Source: Rheinheimera sp. SA_1
GTDB lineage: Bacteria > Pseudomonadota > Gammaproteobacteria > Enterobacterales > Alteromonadaceae
Direction of reading: 5' to 3'
NCBI RefSeq assembly: GCF_001669775.1
Contig: NZ_LXWK01000017.1
Coordinates: 1 to 64,000 of the forward strand
Length of the DNA: 64,000 bases
Shown here: piece by piece, positions 31,697 through 37,221 of the stretch
Numbering within the stretch: position 1 is the stretch's first letter
Layout of the letters: each line of letters begins with the position of its first letter
Made by a program: the position numbers and the translations under genes
Notes under the pieces: model-generated
What the model was told of the DNA's origin: nothing
The model's input: the letters and a program-made list of their open reading frames with translations, nothing else
Database searches by the model: none

Positions 31697-35006
<3,310 letters not shown>

Positions 35007-35021
35007 TGGCATTGATTATGC
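35007..35021 (+). promoter_or_regulatory. Candidate sigma-54 promoter of the PEP-CTERM gene
   Basis: TGGCATTGATTATGC, followed by T, keeps GG and GC 10 bases apart and matches TGGCA and TGCT of the -24/-12 consensus, missing the CG and one T. It lies 39 bp before the Shine-Dalgarno-preceded start. PEP-CTERM genes in other proteobacteria are often driven by sigma-54 with the regulator PrsR, which supports the reading; no prsK/prsR genes are in the window. Confidence 0.5.
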
Positions 35022-35059
35022 TGGAGGTAAAAGCCTGAAGTCCATATTGGAGTCCTCAC

Positions 35060-36034
35060 TTGGTGTCGAAAATCAACTTTCACCCGAAAAAGCTTAGTCT
35101 TGTGATTGCGACGATCTTAGGCGTCAATCTCAATACTTCTTATGCAACATTATTAAATTACAACATTATCACTGAGTCAGGGTATGCCATTGGCCAGACG
35201 ACTCCCTTAATCAATAGTTCCACCCATAGCGATCCGGCAAGCTCCAGCGTGTATCTGGATTACAACAGTTATGGTCAGGATCCGAACACCCGTGGTGCAG
35301 CTGCCGGTAATGACTATGGCTGGATGTATTCCCGCTCTGGTGGTCAGGGTTCTTATTTCACCCACTATTCAGTGGTCACTCAAACGGTAGATCTGCAAAA
35401 CGATTCAGCCTTTGATCAGGACTACAACTACAACTTTGCCATCAACTTTGGCTCGTTGTCGGCGTATAACTTCAGTTTTAACACTGCACTGGAATACTCG
35501 ATGGCGGGTTATGAAGTTGAGATTTCGGTGAATAATACCGCCTTGTGGCAAAGCTCATTTACGTTAACTACGGATCTGGCATCAGGTTCGGTTGGCAGCG
35601 GCAGCGGTGTGTCGCTGGCTGCTTATTCTGAAGGCAACAACTACTTCAGCTGGCCGGAATACTCCGGCAACCTGGGTCTTGGGTTACTCGGCAGTGGCCA
35701 GTCTCTGACACTGAGCTACAGCATCAAAACTTTTGTCGCGGGTAATCACGCCGCCAGCTGTAACGGCTACGGTTCCCCTGCCGGATTTTCAGAACTGGAA
35801 GAAGATTGTAACGGTTATGGTTATGGCGGTTATGGCAGCTACGGTTATCTGAACTTCAGCGGTGATACCTACGCCCAGTTTGGGGATCCAAATAGCTTTA
35901 GCGGTACACCCGTCGCTTTTAATAATCAGAACATCACACCACAACGTGAGGTGATTGCTGCACCGGGTACACTCGCGCTGGCCGGTTTAGGTCTGGCTGG
36001 ACTGGCATTTCGCCGTCGCAAACAACAGTCTTAA
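35060..36034 (+). CDS. PEP-CTERM sorting-domain protein (extracellular, variant anchor motif)
   Basis: A 324-residue exported protein. The N-terminus (KKLSLVIATILGVNLNTSYA) is a Sec signal peptide. The mature body is rich in Gly, Ser, Asn and Tyr (YGYGGYGSYGYLNF), with an immunoglobulin-like beta pattern and an NGYG repeat including a Cys pair (AASCNGYG, EEDCNGYG). The C-terminus, AAPGTLALAGLGLAGLAFRRRKQ, is a PEP-CTERM tripartite signal: motif, transmembrane helix, Arg cluster. Here the usual PEP reads AAPG. Exosortase would cleave it for surface or matrix display, but no exosortase is in the window. It starts with TTG (GGAG seven bases before) or the GTG next to it. It overlaps the convergent glycosyltransferase by 4 bp. 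Confidence 0.85.
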   Translation: MVSKINFHPKKLSLVIATILGVNLNTSYATLLNYNIITESGYAIGQTTPLINSSTHSDPASSSVYLDYNSYGQDPNTRGAAAGNDYGWMYSRSGGQGSYFTHYSVVTQTVDLQNDSAFDQDYNYNFAINFGSLSAYNFSFNTALEYSMAGYEVEISVNNTALWQSSFTLTTDLASGSVGSGSGVSLAAYSEGNNYFSWPEYSGNLGLGLLGSGQSLTLSYSIKTFVAGNHAASCNGYGSPAGFSELEEDCNGYGYGGYGSYGYLNFSGDTYAQFGDPNSFSGTPVAFNNQNITPQREVIAAPGTLALAGLGLAGLAFRRRKQQS

Positions 36035-37221
36035 CCACTGGGTTCATCTGCAAAAATATCAGCCAGGGCATCCAGCATGCCCTGTGCTTGTTCACCCAAA
36101 TCAAACCCATGATAACGATGCTGAAAACTGGCAATAGCCTGATGTAATTTTTGATCGCGGTAGATTTTGTCGATGACGCTGGGGATCAACTGTAATTCGC
36201 CACCTGGCGGGATAAAATACGCCAGATGCTGCTCACACAGGCGCACCGACAACACTAGTTGCTCCAGTTGTTTTGGCAATAACAACAACGGGCGACCGGC
36301 CAACAACATCGCCGATAAAGTACCGTGGCCGGCATGGCAAATCACTAAATCGGCCTGCGTTGCGACATCAGCCATCTTCACAGGCGCTGGACTCCAAATC
36401 AAATTTGGAAACTGTGCTGGCTGTAGTTGATGCTTCCTTCCCACATGCACCAATACTGAATCGCTCAGTAAATTTAACTGCGTCAGCAATAGCAGAATTG
36501 CCGGATAATCAGCATGCAGATAGGCAAAAATACGCTGCTTTGCCATCACTGGCCATTGCGGTCTGACACCCTGTTCAATATCGAAGGCTGAACCCCAATA
36601 GGCGGCATCCGGACGTACCCGGTAATGATCAAATTCAGCGAAGGTGCAGAGAAAATGCTCCTTCGCCTGATAAAACAGCTGACTAAAACGGGAAAACTCG
36701 GTCAAACCGGCTTGACGCATCAGTTGATTAACACTAGATAACAGCAAAAGTTCTGCGTCGCTGGCCGGATTGGGATCAGCTTGTAAATCGGGTAGCGGTG
36801 TCAGATCAGGAGGCAGAAAAAAACCCGTACCCAAAATAGCATGAGGAACGCCGGCCATTAAAGTCGCAATTAATGCCGTAGGCGCATGATCTAACACCAC
36901 TACATCAGGCTGAAATTGTTGTAGCAGCGTTTGCCACAATCCAACCCGACGCTCGATTTCAGTTACATCATGAAAGCCATTGTTGTACAAAATCTCCGCC
37001 AGGTTACGGGTTGGGTTAAACCGATGTTTTTTTTGCACCGCTGGCGCAGGCACGATGTCAGTAATTTCAAAAAGCATTTGCCGCGCCGTTGTGACATTAC
37101 TGACGATACAACTGACTTTCCAGCCTTGTTGCAGCAACTTGACGGCCAATCGGCGAAAATTAAGCACATGACCATAACCTTGCCCGAGCTCCCAGCAATA
37201 CAGCAAATGACGTTGAGTCAT
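36031..37221 (-). CDS. Glycosyltransferase, GT1/UGT-MurG-like
   Basis: A 396-residue GT-B-fold glycosyltransferase. The N-terminal GYGHVLNFRRLAVKLLQQG matches the acceptor-side Rossmann start of UGT/MGT enzymes (GHxxP-like region). The C-terminal nucleotide-sugar loop is DLVICHAGHGTLSAMLLAGRPLLLLP, typical of the GT1/MurG superfamily. No signal peptide or transmembrane segment, so it is cytoplasmic. Donor and acceptor are unknown. It is convergent with, and overlaps, the PEP-CTERM gene; because PEP-CTERM systems co-occur with exopolysaccharide synthesis, a shared role is conceivable but unproven. A 66-bp gap separates it from mazG, which runs in the same direction. Confidence 0.82.
   Translation of the reverse strand: MTQRHLLYCWELGQGYGHVLNFRRLAVKLLQQGWKVSCIVSNVTTARQMLFEITDIVPAPAVQKKHRFNPTRNLAEILYNNGFHDVTEIERRVGLWQTLLQQFQPDVVVLDHAPTALIATLMAGVPHAILGTGFFLPPDLTPLPDLQADPNPASDAELLLLSSVNQLMRQAGLTEFSRFSQLFYQAKEHFLCTFAEFDHYRVRPDAAYWGSAFDIEQGVRPQWPVMAKQRIFAYLHADYPAILLLLTQLNLLSDSVLVHVGRKHQLQPAQFPNLIWSPAPVKMADVATQADLVICHAGHGTLSAMLLAGRPLLLLPKQLEQLVLSVRLCEQHLAYFIPPGGELQLIPSVIDKIYRDQKLHQAIASFQHRYHGFDLGEQAQGMLDALADIFADEPSG

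Follow-up and report, generated by a model that had tools for sequence, protein, structure and literature searches.

Within the window, a 64,000-nt stretch of contig NZ_LXWK01000017.1 of Rheinheimera sp. SA_1, a forward-strand open reading frame at positions 35060-36034 encodes a protein of 324 amino acids, beginning at a TTG codon and ending in a stop codon at 36032-36034. The gene is preceded by approximately 370 nt of non-coding DNA, beyond which lies a divergent gene, listed at 33047-34738, that by eye reads like pyrG, and is followed by a convergent glycosyltransferase-like gene (36031-37221) whose NCBIfam matches are weak and all below cut-off. The TTG start is supported by a homologue from Bowmanella denitrificans with 53% identity, since the ATG of that homologue aligns with it. 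The features that we assigned to the gene and its control region are the following:

34928-34944, forward strand: PrsR-box-like enhancer element TGTCAGTATATTTTACA, following the pattern YGTC-N7-TTTACA, 62 nt 5' of the -24/-12 element
35007-35022, forward strand: -24/-12 sigma-54-type promoter TGGCATTGATTATGCT, assigned by sequence pattern and shuffle test
35049-35052, forward strand: GGAG, a likely ribosome-binding site recognized by eye, 7 nt before the TTG
35060-36034, forward strand: XrtA-type (PEP-CTERM) substrate of 324 amino acids with a TTG start, assigned from the open reading frame list, PF07589 and alignments
35060-35146, forward strand: signal-peptide-like N-terminus, residues 1-29, from alignment A1 and a predicted helix at residues 9-22 (low pLDDT)
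35144-35881, forward strand: passenger domain, a predicted beta-sandwich, residues 29-274, from the predicted structure and a fold search
35954-36031, forward strand: sorting signal, comprising IAAPGT (residues 299-304), a hydrophobic helix and RRRK, from PF07589, alignment A1 and the predicted structure

The N-terminus carries KK, a hydrophobic run and an Ala29 that is invariant in alignment A1 and is the probable cleavage site of the signal-peptide-like segment. Outside the tail, the protein has no NCBIfam or Pfam match at E ≤ 10. Its predicted structure (mean pLDDT 75.2, pTM 0.71, 8 sequences) is rich in beta-strands from residue 29 to residue 274; confidence is low in a Gly/Tyr-rich stretch of the passenger around residues 234-263 and in the C-terminal helix at residues 302-323. 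The fold search with Foldseek returned 2 matches at E ≤ 0.001, both to PDB entry 8okh, which was also the best match in VIA-align (Z 11.2, rmsd 3.5, 155 aligned residues, 11% identity). This entry is Bd1399 of Bdellovibrio bacteriovorus, described as an elongated beta-sandwich and as a cryptic protein that is secreted and linked to predation (PMC10792529). Bd1399 is the one fold match that stands out. It differs in sequence, and the excerpts of its description mention no sorting tail; the likeness yields no function for the passenger. The other VIA-align matches shown have Z-scores of 7.4 or lower, which according to the tool may reflect a mere common arrangement, and we therefore claim no carbohydrate-binding role; any role of the beta-sandwich would have to be inferred.

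The passenger is rare. No match to it was found in 21 congeneric genomes at E ≤ 0.001 (one of them, G021, matched in the tail only), and of 294 other genomes drawn from the family, 10 had a match (11 of 295 including the host). Scanning a collection of genome contigs with the single protein revealed no relative; scanning them with alignment A2 revealed seven loci, in Bowmanella, Catenovulum, Paraglaciecola, Psychrosphaera and three metagenome-assembled genomes.

The first-pass annotation had read the gene as encoding a PEP-CTERM protein with an altered PEP motif, and this reading holds: the open reading frame, the C-terminal helix and the Arg cluster are all present in the C-terminal residues REVIAAPGTLALAGLGLAGLAFRRRKQQS, and the tail IAAPGTLALAGLGLAGLAFRRRKQQS scores 22.3 bits against the Pfam PEP-CTERM model PF07589, above its gathering score of 20.7. 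With NCBIfam TIGR02595 the protein reaches 13.7 bits, below the cut-off of 16, and is therefore assigned only to the broader Pfam class. In line with the layout described by Haft et al. (2006), residues 302-323 are a predicted helix (low pLDDT) followed by RRRK; the near-invariant Pro-Glu-Pro of that description is replaced here by AAP, followed by Gly. In alignment A3, the I-A-A-P of the protein aligns with V-x-E-P in all seven other sequences, and Pro302 is the sole residue of the tripeptide that is conserved in all 12 rows of alignment A1. Two more narrowly defined families matched over the C-terminal 33-38 residues only and far below their curated cut-offs, namely XDP1 (NF041927; 19 bits against 125) and the THxN PEP-CTERM family (NF038125; 24.7 bits against 85). 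By title, no paper concerning XDP1 was among the literature matches listed.

The sigma-54 consensus is marked by the spacing between GG and GC, and the element at 35007-35022 has the same spacing. It ends 37 nt before the start codon, and from its position transcription is predicted to start near 35033. We evaluated the control region with 30,000 dinucleotide-preserving shuffles of positions 34691-35059. A loose TGG-N10-GC pattern was present in 9,843 of the shuffled sequences and a stricter TGGCA-N7-TGC pattern in 300, whereas the composite of a YGTC-N7-TTTACA box and a -24/-12 element was present in 1, with the qualification that the YGTC half of the box pattern was derived from the host genome's own genes, this gene included (its TTTACA, like the spacer and -24/-12 pattern, was taken from Haft et al. 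2006). By these counts, the evidence from the -24/-12 element alone is weak and that from the composite is strong. A sigma-70 consensus scan of positions 34690-36200 gave two minus-strand sites, no more than in shuffled sequences (mean 2.5). The arrangement agrees with that reported for the XrtA/PEP-CTERM system by Haft et al. (PMC1569441), in which motif 1, of 17 nt with TTTACA at its end, precedes a motif 2 with the -24/-12 pattern, at a mean spacer of 62.8 nt (SD 10.6, range 32-92), and the mean distance from motif 2 to the start codon is 71 nt.

The protein components of such a system are also encoded in the genome, as the first-pass annotation had proposed to check. The host has a single match to the exosortase model PF09721 (E ≤ 0.001), which is XrtA (TIGR03109, 316.6 bits against a cut-off of 208) and is adjoined by XrtA-associated polysaccharide (EPS) genes. 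PrsK (536 bits, cut-off 300) and PrsR (703.9 bits, cut-off 502.6) are encoded side by side, approximately 43 kb away. Motif 1 and motif 2 upstream of the gene thus occur together with PrsK and PrsR in the same genome, which bears out the suggested PrsR/sigma-54-type control region. Across 18 exosortases that we compared, one Cys, one Arg and two His residues are invariant, in contexts that fit the published Cys/Arg/His triad (PMC1569441). Elsewhere in the genus, genomes G009 and G012 encode PrsK/PrsR and PEP-CTERM tails (5 and 2, respectively) and have no PF09721 exosortase match; in G009, the 57 kb before PrsR contains no tblastn match to ten other proteins from the host XrtA cluster or its vicinity. 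These two genomes may reflect loss of the exosortase, an assembly gap or the presence of another enzyme. Conversely, G016, a fragmented assembly (620 contigs, 91% complete), has an exosortase and PrsR and no PF07589 match at E ≤ 0.01.

The same control pattern recurs across the host genome. Among 14 upstream regions of PF07589 matches, nine (L017-L024, L029) have, no more than 150 nt from the start, a -24/-12 match that agrees with the consensus at 9 or more of 12 bases. In all nine, a YGTC-N7 box with at most 1 mismatch in TTTACA lies 50-74 nt before the -24/-12 element. A genome-wide search with a strict pattern, GTC-N7-TTTACA-N48-78-TGG-N10-GC, gave 11 matches, against 3 for a control in which the pattern was reversed. 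Nine of the 11 precede PEP-CTERM genes (L035, L036, L038, L039, L041-L045), that is, the 324-residue protein's gene and eight others. Another match (L040), not followed by a PEP-CTERM gene, was taken as chance. In 22 genomes of the genus, host included, the 10 with PrsR contained 69 strict matches and the 12 without it 11, where two overlapping matches sharing one box in G016 were counted as two; the reversed pattern gave 21 and 9 matches in the same sets, so that the control count is not negligible. Over the genus, the loose composite was found upstream of 16 of 23 tails with Glu before the Pro and of 21 of 33 other tails, a comparison that includes three genes (L042, L043 and L045; one Glu, two non-Glu) that had entered the set through the control element itself. 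In the host, 5 of 16 tails lack a loose composite upstream, and in the scanned stretches of 14 distinct homologues we found five with box and -24/-12 element, four with the box alone and five with no box.

The remaining strict match in the host (L037, C12:142665-142757) precedes an operon-like pair of genes. The first encodes a 265-aa protein without an NCBIfam match, and the second, truncated by the end of the locus, matches HprK-related kinase A below cut-off (TIGR04352, 136.8 bits over 156 residues, cut-off 200). Pattern search of the genus genomes gave the same element in G004, and G012 has a similar one; the PrsR regulon may include this operon.

The nearest characterized counterparts include the XrtA/PEP-CTERM system of Haft et al. 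2006 (PMC1569441), with which the locus shares the tripartite tail, the long upstream region, PrsK/PrsR, the EPS cluster, and the succession of a motif 1 ending in TTTACA, a spacer (62 nt here) and a -24/-12 motif 2; it departs from that system in having AAP where PEP is near-invariant. For pepA of Aquincola tertiaricarbonis, a PEP-CTERM gene, dependence on RpoN and a role in floc formation have been reported (PMC9850573); it has a -24/-12 promoter (TGGCAC/CTGCTT) that depends on RpoN1 and a determined start site. Both are PEP-CTERM genes with a -24/-12 element; the promoter described here is predicted. The uncharacterized Bowmanella homologue (L151), which matches over the whole protein, likewise has a box and a -24/-12 element (TGGCACTGACTATGC) upstream of its start, with a spacer of 85 nt, but its tail reads VPEPAS.

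To place the AAPG spelling in context, we compiled 16 tails from the host genome, consisting of 13 convincing ones among 18 PF07589 matches and three found through the promoter pattern only; a 45-residue frame (L030) and four matches that by eye have no PEP-CTERM tails (L031-L034) were left out. One of the latter, L034 (C22:46699-46737), is a long protein with the C-terminus SAGGSGGSLNFWGLGLLALWLWRRRN, which by eye is GlyGly-CTERM-like, and because of this resemblance a rhombosortase system may coexist in the host genome. Glu precedes the Pro in 3 of the 16 tails, with an exact PEP in 2, and is absent in 13; L042, another host gene with a PrsR box, has the tail VAAPAT. Over nine genomes of the genus, the 56 tails have Glu (23), Ala (23), Leu (3), Gln (2), Thr (2) or Ser (1) at this position, where two (L026 and L029) could not be placed by rule and were entered as non-Glu; an exact PEP occurs in 14. 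The residue is exchanged in the same way among homologues of the protein, of which 9 of 14 distinct ones have Glu and 5 have Ala, Thr or Ser, in spellings such as VPEP, VSEP, VTAP, VNTP and VSTP. The relaxation is not universal, since G015 (4/4) and G018 (3/3) keep Glu in all tails examined.

The most probable explanation, to which we assign a probability of roughly 0.9, is that the gene encodes an ordinary substrate of exosortase A (XrtA) under PrsK/PrsR/sigma-54 control, with AAPG as a normal spelling of the motif. The kinase PrsK would activate the response regulator PrsR, which would bind the YGTCA-N6-TTTACA box at 34928-34944 and drive transcription by sigma-54 RNA polymerase from the -24/-12 element (35007-35022). 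The signal peptide would then export the protein, the C-terminal helix would hold it in the inner membrane, and the single host XrtA would cut near IAAPG, after which the protein would be passed to the surface or the exopolysaccharide matrix. The sequence shows the open reading frame, the tail, the composite control region, one XrtA, PrsK/PrsR and the exchange of the motif in homologues and paralogues; binding by PrsR, dependence on sigma-54, cutting by XrtA and surface location are inferred. AAPG would be a normal spelling and no separate signal because the Glu of PEP is often replaced in this clade, mostly by Ala.

The first-pass annotation had suggested that a variant motif can indicate a matched exosortase variant, and motif-dedicated exosortases do exist as named NCBIfam families (VPLPA, VPDSG). 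A second, dedicated enzyme reading the AAPG tail apart from the PEP-reading one is nevertheless highly improbable here, considering that XrtA is the host's only PF09721 match at E ≤ 0.001 and 13 of the 16 host tails examined are without Glu. Comparison of motifs over the PEP-CTERM proteins of the genus goes against the pairing as well: exosortases occur in 8 of the 22 genomes (host included), one in each, and of the seven that also have tails (again with the host), five mix Glu and non-Glu. The 10 other family genomes with a homologue, in which the homologues have PEP-like or AP/TP/SP tails, each have exactly one exosortase above cut-off (six further matches with E-values of 0.1-0.6, below cut-off, were excluded). 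A single exosortase per genome despite mixed tails argues against the pairing of motif variant with enzyme variant, and AAPG is better described as a common local spelling; its use as a pointer to a new sorting enzyme is not supported.

That the signal has decayed, leaving the protein exported and no longer sorted, in the inner membrane or periplasm, would account for a tail below the TIGR02595 cut-off and for the missing Glu where the Bowmanella homologue has VPEP. We consider this decidedly unlikely, as the hydrophobic stretch, the Arg cluster, the invariant Pro and the control region are all intact, and Ala, found here, accounts for 23 of the 56 genus tails, more than any other substitute for Glu. 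It is hardly credible that the tail serves as a GlyGly-CTERM (rhombosortase) signal or simply as a C-terminal membrane anchor: a tripartite layout is common to these classes (PMC3237569), but by eye there is no Gly-Gly/Ser motif before the hydrophobic stretch, homologues have plain VPEP tails, and the tail passes PF07589. An unlikely refinement is that one XrtA sorts both Glu and non-Glu substrates and the residue tunes the cleavage rate, or release versus anchoring; if this were true, a single enzyme would be reading motif spelling as a graded code.

With the ordinary XrtA substrate as the preferred reading, the single gene by itself matters little. Our results suggest that in this clade exosortase substrates are not defined by the Glu of PEP, and that models built on PEP therefore undercount them. 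In the host genome, TIGR02595 has 3 matches at E ≤ 0.001 and PF07589 has 18 at E ≤ 10, of which 8 are above cut-off and 13 convincing by eye, and the PrsR/sigma-54 pattern adds three PEP-CTERM-type genes (L042, L043 and L045) that the PF07589 search at E ≤ 10 did not list. A census of exosortase substrates by control region would thus complement the tail models.
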